Assembly (NCBI RefSeq): GCF_000686845.1
Contig: NZ_JMLS01000029.1
Location: 1-64,000 of the forward strand
DNA: 64,000 nt
Reading direction: 5' to 3'
Source: Paenibacillus sp. UNC451MF
GTDB taxonomy: Bacteria; Bacillota; Bacilli; Paenibacillales; NBRC-103111
In this document: positions 16,675 to 28,434 of the stretch, one piece after another
Position numbering within the stretch: the stretch's first letter is position 1
How the letters are laid out: each line of letters starts with the position of its first letter
Notes under the pieces: generated by a model
Databases searched by the model: none
What the model was told of the DNA's origin: nothing
What the model saw: the letters and a program-made list of their open reading frames with translations, nothing else
Program-made: the position numbers and the translations under genes

Positions 16675-17302
16675 GACATGGAATAATGAAACTAATCATC
16701 CTGAGCCTACGAATGGTGTGCGCGTATTTATGGGACAGCCGGCGTTTGCCGGTAAGCCTGCATCAGGCCATAACACCCAATATGAAAATATGGAGTTTGG
16801 TCTGCAAGGGGTCGATGCTGCCATTACTGCTTTGTCAAAATGACAGCTCAGACGGTGAGGTATCCCCCTCCGGCCGCTATCGCTCCTTCAGGGGATACAA
16901 ACTGTGCATTACAATTCAATTGCAATGTTCATGTTCCCGATGGTCATTGTTTTTGCCGTCATCTTATTAAGGTATAGATGGATTGTTGGCATTCATAATA
17001 TTGTGAATCAAGCGTTTGATGAAGTTACTAAGGACAAAATATAGTTCTGCTTCACCCGGTAAGCCTTTATAAAAGTTTTGCTTTTTTATTGAGTAGCAAA
17101 CAAATACACATTAATACTTACAATGATAGAAAGTAATTATTGAAATACCATTAAAAAAAGAACTCCCGGCTGGGAGTTCTTTCAAGAGATACGTATATAG
17201 TTCTTGCAGCCCACATATATCGTTAAAACAAAACGAATGGATCGAAGATGAATCCGAGAATATTGAGCTAGACTGGGTAAAAGAACAGATACAGCAAAGC
17301 TA
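16675..17302 (+). other. stretch of decayed coding fragments
   Basis: This gene-poor stretch holds three short rightward pieces without plausible start signals: one ending near 16843 (contains VFMGQPAFAGKPASG), one at 16925-17044 (a hydrophobic helix, MFMFPMVIVFAVILLRYR, then a charged tail) and one ending near 17302 (contains EWIEDESENIELDWVKEQIQ). They look like C-terminal ends of former genes. I recognise none of them and see no RNA gene here. Confidence 0.35.
17151..17182 (-). terminator. leftward terminator-like hairpin
   Basis: AAAGAACTCCC and GGGAGTTCTTT pair around GGCT. Only the leftward direction ends in a T-run (seven A residues on the + strand). It could end transcription of the 17316-17483 remnant. 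Confidence 0.6.
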
Positions 17303-23620: not shown

Positions 23621-23858
23621 CAATCCTTAGGGATTTTATGGATGTTGAGAAATCTATTTTCTGGAAATTTGCTATATAGGGAGGTGGGGGATGCCTCGGA
23701 GGAGTTTACGTCCGCCTTTGAAATCCGTGAATATACCGCTAGTTTTTATTCAAATTCACGGGTTTCAACAGCGGCTGGAGGGGTATATCCCACTGGAGTA
23801 TAGTGGCAACATTTCAAGTTCCTTAGGTTTCTAGACTGACTCACAATCCTTAGGGATT
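23621..23858. repeat. 15-bp direct repeats flanking element E1
   Basis: CAATCCTTAGGGATT occurs at 23621-23635 and 23844-23858, either side of E1. The right copy directly abuts the end of sequence shared with E2. Possible target-site duplication. Confidence 0.55.
23680..23818 (+). ncRNA. structured element E1, unknown RNA or MITE-like
   Basis: P1 is GTGGGGGATGCC (23684-23695) with GGTATATCCCAC (23782-23793). P2 is GGAGGA/TCCGCC with one mismatch. P3 is GAAATCCGTGAAT (23720-23732) with ATTCACGGGTTTC (23754-23766). The P3 loop carries CCGCT (23736-23740), which can pair with AGCGG (23770-23774) outside P3, a possible pseudoknot. The same layout occurs in E2 at 28242-28388 with different stem sequences. 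E1 lies in the leader between the 23571 -10 box and the 23970 gene. Confidence 0.65.
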
Positions 23859-23969
23859 GTAATTCTCCACCCAAATTGTTACGTTTATGGATATGCGTGT
23901 AATAAGAAGAGCGTCCTCTCATAATGGATATAACTGAAATACAAACCTTAACAGGAGGGTATCCGCACG

Positions 23970-25850
23970 ATGGCACAATCAACGATACTCCTAGTCGATG
24001 ACGAGAAAGAAATCATTGATATGCTGGAAATCTATTTAAAAAACGAAGGTTACAAGCTGCTCCGGGCATCCGATGGCGAACAGGCGCTACAGGTGCTTCA
24101 GAAGGAGGAAGTCGATTTGATCGTTCTTGACATCATGATGCCGAAGATGGACGGGATTGAGGCTTGCCTCAAAATCAGAGAGCAAAAAAATATGCCCATC
24201 ATCATGCTCTCCGCCAAGAGTCAGGACATGGACAAAATTTGGGGGTTATCTTCGGGAGCGGACGATTATTTGAGCAAGCCCTTTAACTCGCTCGAGCTGA
24301 TTGCTCGGATCAAATCCCAGCTGCGCCGCTATACCCGTCTGAATGTTCCCCATGTGAACAAGGAGCATGAAATTGAAGTAGACGATCTGATGATCAATAC
24401 TTTGACGCATGAGGTCAAGGTACAAGGTCAGGAAGTGAAGCTTACACCGCGGGAGTTCGCCATTCTGGAGCTTCTGGCTCGTAATCGGGGAATGGTGTGG
24501 AACATCGAGAAAATATACGAAGCCGTCTGGAAGGAAGCGTACTTTGATAGTGAGGCTCACAATCTTGCCCGGGAATTAGATCCCCCGTATCTCCATTCTG
24601 GAGACGTGCCTGAGGAGGACAGGCCTACGCCCGCCTCGAGGCAAGCTGACTTTGAAGAGCATGTGAAACGGATTGCCCAAAACCAGAGGTACAAGGTTCT
24701 CATCACGGATTTGGAAGGGAGAGTTATTTTCCGAAGCAGCAACGCGGCGGAAACGAATGTCGACATTCACAATGTCATTAACAATGCGATGAACGCCCGT
24801 ACTGACAGTGATTATGATAGAAAAGAATTTTCCAGCTTTTATCCCGTTAATTATAAAGGACAAAAATCGTATTTGGTCGTATCCGGCATTCCCCAGCCGC
24901 ACATTACGTATCGCAAAGGGGACAGCCCCATGTCGATTCTCAGCGCAATAGCCATGTTCATCTTCTTGTTCTACTTCTTGACGCAAAGGAAAATGCGTTA
25001 CGTGGAGGAGCTGGCAGGCGGCCTGCGTATTATTGCTACAGGCAATCTGGACTATCGGGTTATCGAGCGCAGCGAGGATGAGCTGGGTTCCTTGGCACGG
25101 GATATGAATCTGATGGTGGAGGATTTACAGCGGAGGATCGAGGAGGAGAGGCGCAATGAGCAGTTGAAAAATGAACTGATTACGAATGTATCGCATGACC
25201 TGCGTACACCGCTCACTCTTATTATGGGCTACCTCCGGCTGCTGCACGATAAGGGGTACGAGACACCGGAACAAGCTGCCGGATATGTAAGTATCGCTTA
25301 CAATAAATCCGAGAAGCTAAAGCTTCTCATCGACGATCTGTTCGAATATACGAAGCTGTCCAATCGCGATGTGCCGCTGTACAAAGAAGGCGTCCCGATC
25401 AATGACGTTTTGGATCAGCTCCTTGAAGAGTTCGTCACGATGGCTGAGGAACAACAGCTAGCGATCATCCGCAATATTCCGAAGGAAAAGCTGCTTGTCC
25501 GGATCGATGTGGATAAGATGATCCGCGTATTCGAGAATCTGCTCACCAATGCGCTCAAATATAGTCTGAAGCCAGGCGCTATCACGGTCAATGTCTCTAG
25601 GGATCACCGGTATGTGACCATCCGGGTCAGCAATCGGTCGGATATGCTGACAGATGAAGAGCTGCAGCAGCTGTTCGAGCGCTTCTACCGGGTTGATGCT
25701 TCTCGTACCTCCAGCACAGGAGGTTCCGGGTTAGGACTGGCTATCGCCAAGAGCATCGTGGATTCACACGATGGTACCATCTGGGCGGAGCAGGATAGCG
25801 GCCAGCTGCATTTCTATGTGAAGCTGAAGCTCGCGGCATTGAGTATATGA
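23970..25850 (+). CDS. response regulator and histidine kinase fused by deletion
   Basis: 626 residues. Residues 1-120 are an intact OmpR-type receiver (LLVDDEKEI, VLDIMMPKMDG, KPFN). Residues 130-197 are the first part of the winged-helix domain, which stops after WKEAYFDSEAHN, before the recognition helix and wing. Directly afterwards begins mid-sensor sequence of a histidine kinase (RELDPPYLHSGDVPEEDRP), then one membrane helix (about 326-344), HAMP (345-405), HisKA with NVSHDLRTPLTL (His near 409) and an intact HATPase (NLLTNALKYS, GGSGLGLAIAKS). The first kinase membrane helix is missing. Normally these would be two adjacent genes, so an in-frame deletion fused them. The DNA-binding output should be dead. 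Confidence 0.85.
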   Translation: MAQSTILLVDDEKEIIDMLEIYLKNEGYKLLRASDGEQALQVLQKEEVDLIVLDIMMPKMDGIEACLKIREQKNMPIIMLSAKSQDMDKIWGLSSGADDYLSKPFNSLELIARIKSQLRRYTRLNVPHVNKEHEIEVDDLMINTLTHEVKVQGQEVKLTPREFAILELLARNRGMVWNIEKIYEAVWKEAYFDSEAHNLARELDPPYLHSGDVPEEDRPTPASRQADFEEHVKRIAQNQRYKVLITDLEGRVIFRSSNAAETNVDIHNVINNAMNARTDSDYDRKEFSSFYPVNYKGQKSYLVVSGIPQPHITYRKGDSPMSILSAIAMFIFLFYFLTQRKMRYVEELAGGLRIIATGNLDYRVIERSEDELGSLARDMNLMVEDLQRRIEEERRNEQLKNELITNVSHDLRTPLTLIMGYLRLLHDKGYETPEQAAGYVSIAYNKSEKLKLLIDDLFEYTKLSNRDVPLYKEGVPINDVLDQLLEEFVTMAEEQQLAIIRNIPKEKLLVRIDVDKMIRVFENLLTNALKYSLKPGAITVNVSRDHRYVTIRVSNRSDMLTDEELQQLFERFYRVDASRTSSTGGSGLGLAIAKSIVDSHDGTIWAEQDSGQLHFYVKLKLAALSI

Positions 25851-25869
25851 CCTTAAACTGAAACGATGT

Positions 25870-25913
25870 AATAACCCGTCACTGGTACAGTCCAGGGCGG
25901 GTTATTTGCTTTT
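25870..25913 (+). terminator. terminator after the fused kinase
   Basis: AATAACCCG pairs with CGGGTTATT, enclosing a CTGG/CCAG inner stem; T-rich sequence follows. The rest of the 330-bp gap to 26181 holds promoter-like sequence (TATGAT near 25984) and an AGCTG/CAGCT hairpin near 26034-26063, but no gene or riboswitch I can name. Confidence 0.75.
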
Positions 25914-26180
25914 ATGAACGCAGATGATAAACAGCCAAGATTCGACAAGAAATGCGATTCTCAAGTTTACAAATCATTACCATATGATAGAATAGCAGAA
26001 GTAGGTCCACGTTCCTAAAATATGGAGTAGGAGAGCTGGCTCACCGGACGGTCATCAGCTGCCTCTATCTATGGTTATGTACAGTACGATTCCCAGCCTT
26101 GTGTGCATTTAGGTATGGGTTATTTATCTATGTCTTAGTTTTTATTTATTAAAGAGACAGCGAGGGCGGAGGGGGCGGCA

Positions 26181-27656
26181 TTGAAATCTCGTTTTAGATT
26201 AAAACTGACGATCACTTTGATCTTGTTTGCTATATTGATTTCATGTAGCATCGCAATAACGGATCATCAAAGACTTAGAGAGCAAGCGATTCATCATAAA
26301 TTGGATCAAGTAGAGCAGAATGAGAAGATGGCTAAATATGCACTTGAGACGATTGAAAAGGCTTACTTCGTGTTCGGTGATCACATAGCGGAGCAATTGA
26401 AAGAAAACTCTATTTATTTGCTAAATAAGTATGACGAGAATCCTTCGTTTGATCAATGGGATTTTGATGCGCTTCATAGGCGGCTCTCCTCCGATATTTA
26501 TATTATTGATGCCGATAATCGAATTATCTACAGCAGCTTTAAAGCAGATCTGGGGCTTGATTTCGGATCATGCTGCAAAAAGCTGGCACAAGTCTTGAGT
26601 GAAAGAAGGATGTCGGGGGAGTTTTTTCATGACGGCATCGATATTGAGCAAAAGACGGGGAAAATCAAAAAATACAGCTACATGGCAACCCGTGACAAGA
26701 AGTATATCATTCAGCTTGGTTACGCTCTTCAAAATGAAAATATTTTTAAAAAATTCAATTTCTTTAAGACGCTCGAAGAGCTGCTGCAAAAATACCCATC
26801 CATGAATGAAATCAACATATTGAATACGGGCGGCTTTTCATTGGGTGAACCGGCCGATGGCCGCAAGCTTTCAGGAGAAAGACGGAAAGCCTTCGACCAG
26901 ACGCTTCAAACCGGACAAACGACGGAATGGAGAGGAGAATGGAGGAACGAGCCTGCTATATACCGTTATGTTCATTATATCTCCGAGTACGATATCGGCA
27001 CGACGAAAAATAAGGTGCTGGAAATCATCTATAAAGACAAGGATTTGCAATCCGTTCTTGACCAAAACAAGAAAACTTTTTTAGTTCAATTATTTATTGT
27101 ATTCATTATTTCCATCGGCCTTTCTTTCATAATATCCAGATGGGTTGCCAGACCTATGTATCTTGCTTTCCATGACAGTCTAACCGGATTGAGCAATAGG
27201 GCGGCTTTTGAGGAGATGCTGGCTATGACCATATCCCAAAACAAAGGAATAACCGCATTACTGATGATTGATCTCGATAACTTTAAACTGGTTAACGATC
27301 GTCTTGGACATGACAAAGGGGATCATTTATTAAAGTGTGTGGCGCAGTGTCTTCGTACTATCGCACGAAAGGAAGACATAGCCATACGATTGGGTGGCGA
27401 TGAATTTGTGATCATTATGCCCTCCGTTACGAGACCTATGATGGAGTCCATGGCGACTCGAATCATTGAAGAGATAGGGAAGTCGACGGCTCGAGAAATA
27501 CAGTTAGATGGGGACAAGGTCACGGTCAGTATCGGCATTTCTCTCTCGCCAGAGCATGGTGTGGACCCAGATGCTTTATGCAAAAGTGCTGACATTGCGT
27601 TATATCGTTCCAAGGAGAAAGGAAAAAACCAGTATCACATTTATACGGAGGATTGA
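26181..27656 (+). CDS. membrane diguanylate cyclase with extracytoplasmic sensor
   Basis: 491 residues. TTG start with GGAGGGGG shortly upstream. Membrane helices at about 8-26 and 298-318 flank a roughly 270-residue outer region that looks like a Cache-type sensor (IIDADNRIIYSS). The C-terminal GGDEF domain is intact (HDSLTGLSNRAAFEEM, RLGGDEFVIIMP near residue 405), and RKED five residues upstream supplies the I-site. It should make c-di-GMP in response to an extracellular signal. A Spo0F-like gene follows after 110 bp. Confidence 0.9.
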   Translation: MKSRFRLKLTITLILFAILISCSIAITDHQRLREQAIHHKLDQVEQNEKMAKYALETIEKAYFVFGDHIAEQLKENSIYLLNKYDENPSFDQWDFDALHRRLSSDIYIIDADNRIIYSSFKADLGLDFGSCCKKLAQVLSERRMSGEFFHDGIDIEQKTGKIKKYSYMATRDKKYIIQLGYALQNENIFKKFNFFKTLEELLQKYPSMNEINILNTGGFSLGEPADGRKLSGERRKAFDQTLQTGQTTEWRGEWRNEPAIYRYVHYISEYDIGTTKNKVLEIIYKDKDLQSVLDQNKKTFLVQLFIVFIISIGLSFIISRWVARPMYLAFHDSLTGLSNRAAFEEMLAMTISQNKGITALLMIDLDNFKLVNDRLGHDKGDHLLKCVAQCLRTIARKEDIAIRLGGDEFVIIMPSVTRPMMESMATRIIEEIGKSTAREIQLDGDKVTVSIGISLSPEHGVDPDALCKSADIALYRSKEKGKNQYHIYTED

Positions 27657-27765
27657 AGTTTTCAATTAGAAAATAGAAAGTGTCTATTAGACCTGAGGGC
27701 GGGCGGGTGCTATATGATACGATAAGGGTATCTTAAGTAGAGAAGAAAGGATTTGCTAAGTACAG

Positions 27766-28140
27766 ATGAGTGTAAAAAAAACCATGCTTGTCATTGATGA
27801 TCAGTACGGAATTAGACTCTTTTTGTCCAAGGTGTTCGCTGAGGAAGGCTTCGAAGTTCACTTGGCTAGACACGGGAGACAAGGAATAGAGCTGTTTAAC
27901 GAGACAGCCCCGGATATCGTATTACTCGATATTAAAATTCCTGGCATGGACGGCATTGAAATTTTGAAGGAGTTGATGATGCTCAATTCCCATGCCAAAG
28001 TCATCATGATGACTTCTTATGAAGACCACTATGACGAATGTATGGAGCTTGGAGCAGCCGATTACCTTCAGAAGCCGTTTGATTTGGAGGATTTAAAGGA
28101 AAGGATATATGCTTCTCTGAGTGTCGCCGAGTTGCAATAA
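27766..28140 (+). CDS. Spo0F-like single-domain response regulator
   Basis: 124 residues. The DDQYGIR acidic pocket and DIVLLDIKIPGMDGIEIL phosphorylation site are strongly like Spo0F, the phosphorelay intermediate of sporulation. The switch segment reads MTSYED where Spo0F has MTAYGE, and the KPFD lysine is present. It lies beside a diguanylate cyclase gene rather than the usual fba/rpmE neighbours of spo0F, so it may be a paralogue wired to the upstream sensor. It is not proven to feed Spo0A. Confidence 0.8.
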   Translation: MSVKKTMLVIDDQYGIRLFLSKVFAEEGFEVHLARHGRQGIELFNETAPDIVLLDIKIPGMDGIEILKELMMLNSHAKVIMMTSYEDHYDECMELGAADYLQKPFDLEDLKERIYASLSVAELQ

Positions 28141-28192
28141 TATCGATGCCCCGCTTTCTGTATCCACTGTAACTAAACAACCTCTATAACTC

Positions 28193-28218
28193 AAAAAGAG
28201 CGCCTGGAACAGGCGCTC
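28193..28218 (-). terminator. leftward terminator, original end of aqpZ transcript
   Basis: GAGCGCCTG, GAA, CAGGCGCTC form a perfect hairpin. Leftwards five T residues follow. It is now 230 bp from the aqpZ stop because element E2 lies between. Confidence 0.75.
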
Positions 28219-28434
28219 AGATTGTCGAAAACCCAAATTATTCAGGTGGGGTATGCCTCGGAGGAGCGAAAGCGTCCGCCTTTGTTATCGGGAAATCCCC
28301 GCTGAAAAGCGATTAAGTTCAAAATTTCCCGGTAACAACAGCGGCAGGAGGGGCATACGCCACCGGAGCATACTAGCAATTTTTCAAGGCTTTATGGGTT
28401 TCTCTTCAATCATAGCCCCTGGAACAGGTGCTCT
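28203..28434. repeat. 16-bp direct repeats flanking element E2
   Basis: CCTGGAACAGGCGCTC (28203-28218) and CCTGGAACAGGTGCTC (28419-28434) differ at one base and lie either side of E2. The repeat is part of the terminator hairpin, consistent with insertion into it. Confidence 0.55.
28242..28388 (+). ncRNA. structured element E2, second copy of E1
   Basis: P1 GTGGGGTATGCC (28246-28257) with GGCATACGCCAC (28352-28363). P2 GGAGGA/TCCGCC closes GCGAAAGC, a GNRA-type tetraloop. P3 GTTATCGGGAAAT (28284-28296) with ATTTCCCGGTAAC (28324-28336). CCGCT (28299-28303) can pair with AGCGG (28340-28344). The P3 arms differ from E1 at several positions on both strands yet still pair. It lies between convergent genes, so it is not the leader of either. 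Confidence 0.65.

Follow-up and report, generated by a model that had tools for sequence, protein, structure and literature searches.

The window analysed here, 64,000 nucleotides of Paenibacillus sp. UNC451MF (contig NZ_JMLS01000029.1, positions 1 to 64,000), contains two short structured elements, E1 and E2, each built around a foldable core. A preliminary description had singled out the two cores as a two-copy element with a selected fold and a candidate conserved pseudoknot. Both are present where it placed them, and the strands that it gave for the long stem P3 were confirmed in each, including the single T·G pair at the same place. Its extents were too small: inverted ends of the TGTCGAGAAACC type flank the segment originally noticed in copies, so that from terminal inverted repeat (TIR) to TIR the elements cover 23643-23837 and 28223-28408, with a hairpin repeated on each side. 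Nor are there only two copies, since 74 places in the genome match our model R1. We consider it probable, at about 70%, that E1 and E2 are non-autonomous elements of the miniature inverted-repeat transposable element (MITE) type with IS1182-family ends, inserted at palindromic targets, and that their core is an RNA module. The features are as follows.

23622-23635, no strand: E1, left repeated palindromic target AATCCTTAGGGATT
23643-23837, + strand: E1 element, TIR to TIR, 195 bp, ends TGTTGAGAAATC / GGTTTCTAGACT
23683-23697, + strand: E1, 5' arm of the variable stem P1
23701-23713, + strand: E1, small-hairpin P2 region, AG..TTTA..CGT, the final CC also taking part in P2b
23712-23715, + strand: E1, 5' strand of P2b, CCGC, partner GCGG at 23771-23774
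23717-23732, + strand: E1, 5' strand of P3
23736-23740, + strand: E1, CCGCT in the P3 loop, one half of the claimed pseudoknot, unsupported
23754-23768, + strand: E1, 3' strand of P3
23771-23774, + strand: E1, 3' strand of P2b, GCGG, the claimed pseudoknot partner
23778-23794, + strand: E1, 3' arm of P1
23845-23858, no strand: E1, right repeated target AATCCTTAGGGATT
28198-28218, no strand: E2, left repeated hairpin GAGCGCCTGGAACAGGCGCTC
28223-28408, + strand: E2 element, TIR to TIR, 186 bp
28245-28259, + strand: E2, 5' arm of P1
28263-28277, + strand: E2, small-hairpin P2 region, AGC..GAAA..GCGT
28281-28296, + strand: E2, 5' strand of P3
28324-28338, + strand: E2, 3' strand of P3
28341-28344, + strand: E2, 3' strand of P2b, GCGG
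28348-28364, + strand: E2, 3' arm of P1
28414-28433, no strand: E2, right repeated hairpin AGCCCCTGGAACAGGTGCTC
16849-16910, - strand: third, degenerate copy in the window, P3 absent

In the degenerate copy P2 passes directly into the closing strand. Among frames of at least 70 amino acids, one touches E1 and extends beyond it (23746-23982, - strand) and none touches E2. The + strand folds better than 200 shuffled sequences in both elements (E1 z -2.9, E2 z -5.3; 0/200 as good for each), and the - strand folds more weakly (E1 z -2.0, with 7/200 shuffles as good; E2 z -3.6, 0/200). At 23970-25850 on the + strand, a single frame fuses a response regulator to a sensor kinase. The DNA-binding domain of the regulator covers just 43 of the 77 positions of its profile, and the top matches of the frame are VanR- and VanS-type models, under the cut-offs.

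The elements belong to a large family. A blastn search of the genome with E1 gave 41 matches, and model R1 gave at least 89 rows at E<=0.01, from 150 scored candidates out of 2581, which merged into the 74 places. Ten of these are short (59-84 bases), so that core-deleted copies exist, perhaps through slippage between AGCG repeats. When 38 copies were extracted with their flanks, both ends were recognised in 22, of which 21 measure 186-206 bp from TIR to TIR and one, core-deleted, 168 bp. The copies are short and have no transposase gene of their own, as expected of MITEs. In 16 of the 22, E1 and E2 included, a repeat common to the two flanks scores higher than the 99th percentile obtained with 462 mismatched flank pairs; this repeat is the same hairpin on either side, often terminator-like. 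Clear cases, C43_16795r and C1_307787r among them, retain the A-run of a terminator on the left hairpin and the T-run on the right one, as is expected from target duplication of a whole stem-loop. Imperfect CTTCGTAAGCATT / AGTTTTGAC repeat strings adjoin the copies at C21:112453 and C3:119183 of genome G000.

The ends have counterparts in insertion sequences (IS). The TIR pattern CAGATTGT(C/A)GAGAAACC is common to MITE copies and IS ends, and a search with it uncovered, at the ends of contigs, five IS ends that carry CAGATTGTAGAGAAACC directly after terminator-like hairpins; four of them are identical over 302 bases and the fifth over its available 154, and the transposase fragment there is DDE_Tnp_1_6. 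Related transposases occur in 7 of 40 genomes, the present one among them. Nine IS1182-type loci were scanned for ends, and both ends were seen in six. Two of the loci (L257 and L259) pair a TGTCGAGAAACC end with a TGTCGAGAAAGTC end, and the copies in genome G015 carry a related yet different end pair. The L257 transposase, which lies in two frames, belongs to the IS1182 family by NF033551; searched separately, its C-terminal frame scores 270.3 bits (cut-off 270) and its N-terminal frame 198.8. At three of the six loci with both ends (L257, L262 and L267) the same hairpin stands on both sides. L264 and L270 are two IS1182-type copies in one genome, and the hairpin to the right of L264 is identical to the one to the left of L270; this crosswise arrangement suggests recombination between copies. 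Shared ends, shared target type and repeated hairpins together give the family its MITE anatomy.

Within these ends lies the core, which consists of the variable outer stem P1, which continues into the inverted repeats, the small hairpin P2, the helix P2b (YCGC/GCGR) and the long variable stem P3. The conserved letters of its loops and junctions are GGAGCG..AGCG, CGCCTTTG, ACC in the P3 loop and CAACAGCG, several of the unpaired ones being near-invariant. In 29 copies from the own genome 97.6% of 983 cells are paired, against 40-48% with slid partners; 26 of 34 pairs show change on both sides, and 0 of 500 shuffles reach the alignment on any of five measures. A wider set of 117 loci was retrieved by a core pattern which applied no pairing filter and left the outer P2b letters free. 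There, P3 positions 1-12 are paired in 1307 of 1404 cells (93.1%), compared with 27.5-60.4% when slid by 1 to 3, and the outer pair of P2b is C-G in 63, T-A in 50, T-G in 4 and C-A in 0. The same two-state behaviour of P2b is seen in 205 cores filtered for at least 8 standard pairs among the first 9 of P3: CCGC/GCGG in 102, TCGC/GCGA in 85, TCGC/GCGG in 4 and CCGC/GCGA in 0, with all four P2b pairs formed in 201. Finally, 48 mutually dissimilar cores, filtered for 7 standard pairs among the first 8 of P3, have 92.8% of 1200 cells paired versus 34-45% slid, and a covariation of 0.587 versus 0.074-0.213; the closing pairs of P1, P2 and P2b likewise change on both sides. Because of the P3-pairing filters, the statistics of the 48 cores and model R2 are biased towards pairing, and the counts free of such a filter are those from the 29 own copies, the 117 loci and a set of 191 distinct inserts. 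The claim of a selected, strand-specific fold with pair-preserving change is thus borne out by the 29 copies and by P2b and P3 in the 117 unfiltered loci: the core is conserved beyond copying and is selected as a fold of the + strand.

The strand itself is indicated by the counts of G·U and A·C. Over P3 positions 1-12, the 191 inserts contain 103 G·U and 13 A·C combinations (48 and 11 without position 6), the 117 loci 82 and 12 (36 and 10 without position 6), and the own-genome alignment, A2, 67 and 8. An excess of G·U on the + strand points to this strand as the working single strand and speaks against correction of a palindrome, which is strand-symmetric; taken alone it fits RNA and single-stranded DNA alike.

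The pseudoknot fared differently. The proposed pairing of CCGCT in the P3 loop with AGCGG outside it is possible in both E1 and E2, and individual copies elsewhere may seem compensated (the L042 row is one such), but CCGCT does not track AGCGG, which is used by P2b. Of the 67 loci that have AGCGG, 27 carry a CCGCT loop, as do 25 of the 50 that have AGCGA, while TCGCT, which AGCGA would require, occurs in 0 of the 50 AGCGA loci and in 1 of the 67 AGCGG loci; the 205 cores show the same lack of coupling. A CCGCT/AGCGG pseudoknot was therefore rejected as a conserved feature, GCGG being the 3' strand of the better-supported P2b and no compensating TCGCT being found. The independence of CCGCT from AGCGG and AGCGA suggests that the loop is conserved for another reason or pairs locally.

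The core is widespread in one bacterial order. In a sample of 59 genomes from the order, model R1 finds matches in 42, the own genome included, and in the class it matches 26 of 299 genomes, all from the same order; model R2 matches 6 of 299 genomes of the phylum, five within the order and one, with a weak 79-base match that is probably due to chance, outside it. Absences in the class and phylum searches are soft, as 11 candidates were scored per genome. A pattern scan of named genomes found at least 115 stretches, and all 80 listed are titled Paenibacillus; these loci lean to the consensus since exact core letters were demanded. Cores were also present inside two viral contigs (L254 and L255).

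By eye, several unlike families of outer arms can be told apart around the one core. One MITE family, F2, ends in CTATATA(A/G)ATTGAACTT and has about 18 distinct end pairs in three genomes; the pattern finds the core in 8 of them (216-220 bp, one 163), 7 further pairs enclose an altered core as judged by eye, and no hairpin repeat was evident in the flanks inspected. For the family ending in CTATATAG, no gene-bearing partner was found in 30 loci of three genomes when up to 2.5 kb was allowed between ends; its end pairs lie 163-319 bp apart, one 510-bp pair being left out. Four loci (L271, L274, L285 and L286) form a 258-259 bp subtype of the CTATATAG-ended family, in which extra hairpins replace the core TTTG. 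The core also accompanies IS91-family elements. The C-terminus of IS91 open reading frame 2 (ORF2) was found in 11 loci, and in 10 of them a core follows 41-101 nt downstream on the same strand, the exception being L303; three of the loci (L306, L097 and L229) seem to be one. When an IS91 sample was collected by the transposase alone, the core was present in 4 of 5 loci with the ORF2 C-terminus, and the transposase at L109 is of IS91 type by NF033538. The presence of the same core in MITEs with unrelated ends and in IS91-family 3' regions makes it a separable accessory module. An autonomous composite bounded by inverted cores was rejected, as ordinary genes (lipB at L177, purC at L202) lie in between.

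The genomic context was examined for 137 copies with genes on both sides, with genes delimited crudely as longest frames; a further 21 copies were set aside for their position at locus edges, and 15 fell within one of the frames so delimited. Neighbours are convergent at 41 copies and divergent at 14, and between codirectional neighbours the core lies in sense orientation in 54 cases and antisense in 28 (p 0.005), or 51 and 20 outside the own genome. Orthologous sites provide a view of single insertions over time. In the purC-purS interval (genes named at L202) an element is kept at five loci (L154, L184, L202, L208 and L243), four of them in different named species, and in the six pairings compared, out of 10, the P3 stems show 0-2 changed pairs out of 12, with pairing preserved throughout, and the loops vary. 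At L148 a core also stands before purS, with outer arms wholly unlike those of the five; either the P1 of this copy has been rewritten or two insertions took place at the site. Changes on both sides of a pair occur at other orthologous sites as well, such as G-C to T-A at position 9 between L147 and L183, 3-4 pairs towards L209, and 2 pairs between L190 and L231.

Taken together, these observations are consistent with a mechanism in which an IS1182-family transposase, supplied in trans, would insert the element at palindromic sites, often the hairpins of intrinsic terminators, and would leave the whole stem-loop duplicated on either side. The element and its core would be co-transcribed with the neighbouring gene, and the core would most likely act in cis as RNA, in 3' or intercistronic untranslated messenger RNA. 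It may control message decay or separate message segments, which we hold to be possible rather than probable, and such control could keep insertions tolerable and at times make them useful to the host. More broadly, and tentatively, at somewhat less than even odds, the core may represent a structured RNA of a new class, carried as a non-coding accessory module by unrelated mobile elements across the order, independent of any RNA-guided nuclease, retained by the host in the untranslated regions (UTRs) of messenger RNA, and captured separately by IS1182-type DDE MITEs, by HUH elements of the IS91 type and by the MITEs with CTATATAG ends.

Several observations weigh against our interpretation. 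Taken alone, the end pattern is unspecific and shows no enrichment: it gives 41 and 32 matches, and its reversed control gives 37 and 35. Flanking hairpins are unlike at L259, L264 and L270, three of the six IS loci with both ends, and the core was found in 0 of the 10 IS1182-type loci examined (15 had been fetched). The threshold for target duplication was failed by 6 of the 22 copies, and E1 has as its target a 14-bp palindrome that lacks clear A/T tails. Past P3 position 12, where most stems end, the 191 inserts have more A·C than G·U (36 versus 5); the two-sided-change measure of the 48 cores, whose rows were pre-filtered for P3 pairing, is matched by 32 of 500 shuffles; and in the own genome the codirectional cores are sense in 3 cases and antisense in 8. 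Some orthologous copies also have broken P3 pairs (up to 3 of 12, as for L161 versus L236). As kept stems and two-sided changes stand alongside such broken pairs, constraint on the core in place is likely from the compared sequences, and not proven.

Among other explanations, the simplest is that of an ordinary MITE whose transcript folds through its inverted repeats and has no role as RNA, the covariation reflecting subfamilies and palindrome correction or template switching between the arms. P1 does continue into the inverted repeats, core-deleted copies do occur (the ten short places), and transcripts of MITEs that form stem-loops are commonplace (PMC10969869). On the other hand, the core is preserved where the ends and P1 have been exchanged, several of its unpaired letters are near-invariant, P2b changes as a unit, the fold is largely retained at orthologous sites, and the predominance of G·U over A·C on one strand is not what a strand-symmetric correction would leave. 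We regard this explanation as unlikely.

It is to a similar, low degree conceivable that the core cleaves itself or binds a protein, as a new class of catalytic or regulatory RNA riding on mobile elements. Helices arranged around near-invariant unpaired letters, together with freely variable stems, would be the typical layout of a ribozyme or aptamer, but no Rfam ribozyme was matched.

In line with the earlier remark that the fold had not been matched to a known riboswitch or non-coding RNA class, a search of the window against Rfam 15 at gathering score found no family except 5S rRNA elsewhere, and in a search of E1 and one F2 core up to E=10 the four matches (E 0.47-7.8) were far under gathering. 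A correspondence to a known IS end was found for the outer arms, in the IS1182-family IS, and not for the core. A known riboswitch or non-coding RNA was rejected, as no Rfam family reached threshold and the copies are dispersed; a fixed position upstream of one gene class, as for a riboswitch, was not found, 41 of the 137 copies lying between convergent neighbours.

The fold might instead act as single-stranded DNA, for instance for the HUH (Y2) transposase of IS91 type or during transposition. A strand-specific fold is equally expected from this explanation, which is also supported by the position of the core, downstream of IS91 ORF2 at 10 of the 11 loci. Target duplication is not known for IS91 elements, whereas the E1/E2 family has IS1182-type ends with repeated hairpins. 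Many 3' and intercistronic regions of hosts hold a solitary core, with the sense bias outside the own genome noted above, and G000 has cores, yet no match to the IS91 transposase query at E<=1e-60. These points make a DNA role somewhat more doubtful than the two preceding explanations.

Least probable by far is a guide RNA (omega/HEARO-like, or the right-end element RNA, reRNA, of TnpB) serving an RNA-guided nuclease in trans: tnpB is shared among IS605 and IS607, and a module that is common to unlike transposons and combines variable stems with invariant scaffold letters would fit, but no Rfam guide family was matched, RRXRR, which we take to be the IscB/IsrB domain, was over cut-off in 0 of 59 genomes (one sub-threshold match, in G058), and TnpB (PF07282), present in 20 of the 59, was not found in G000 nor in the core-rich G009, G010, G011, G051 and G057, and G026, with 14 TnpB matches, lacks the core. 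As a general partner, IscB, IsrB or TnpB was therefore rejected.

The family may be compared with several known systems, in so far as the parts of the sources consulted describe them. The bcr1-bcr3 repeats of the Bacillus cereus group are MITE-like interspersed repeats of 100-400 bp, often in UTRs or intercistronic (PMC3446304, PMC6542083), and thus resemble the E1/E2 family in being short, MITE-like and placed at such positions. Their mobility is tied to a TTTAT motif and that of the E1/E2 family to terminator hairpins, and neither a core shared across unlike ends nor a link to IS91, both traits of the E1/E2 family, was found for bcr in those parts. In B. cereus, of bcr1 to bcr3 bcr3 alone was correlated with decay (PMC3446304), a weak precedent for a role in decay. 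The MITEs RUP, SPRITE, BOX and QMITE are, like the E1/E2 family, short, gene-free and intergenic with inverted repeats, and they give stable transcripts (PMC10969869); a core kept while terminal repeats swap, as here, is not described for them in the part of that source seen. For IS1272, a member of the IS1182 family, the reported targets are hairpins, among them terminators, and insertion is blunt, with deletion and without duplication (PMC4923244). It and TnSha1 share with the present family the transposase family NF033551 and the hairpin or terminator targets, but IS1272 is reported to make no target duplication, whereas the E1/E2 family is about 200 bp, gene-free and repeats the whole hairpin.

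IS91-family elements carry the same core in the 3' region of their operons; E1 and E2 differ from them in lacking a Y2 gene and in having inverted ends and a repeated target. Conserved RNA motifs in intergenic regions of Borrelia plasmids, the subject of PMC2674063, may be a parallel. No description of elements of the E1/E2 type was found in the literature searched, which left most subscription journals outside. To our knowledge, accessory modules common to unlike transposons have so far been mainly protein-plus-guide systems.

If our interpretation is true, the core would be a purely non-coding module that occurs naturally in dozens of copies per genome and in many variant families, and it would offer a direct handle on how RNA folds serve mobile DNA and on how such folds are adopted by the host. 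For the host gene, IS1182-type elements flanked by two entire terminator stem-loops would leave the terminator working, and this effect of hairpin duplication may explain why so many copies are tolerated.

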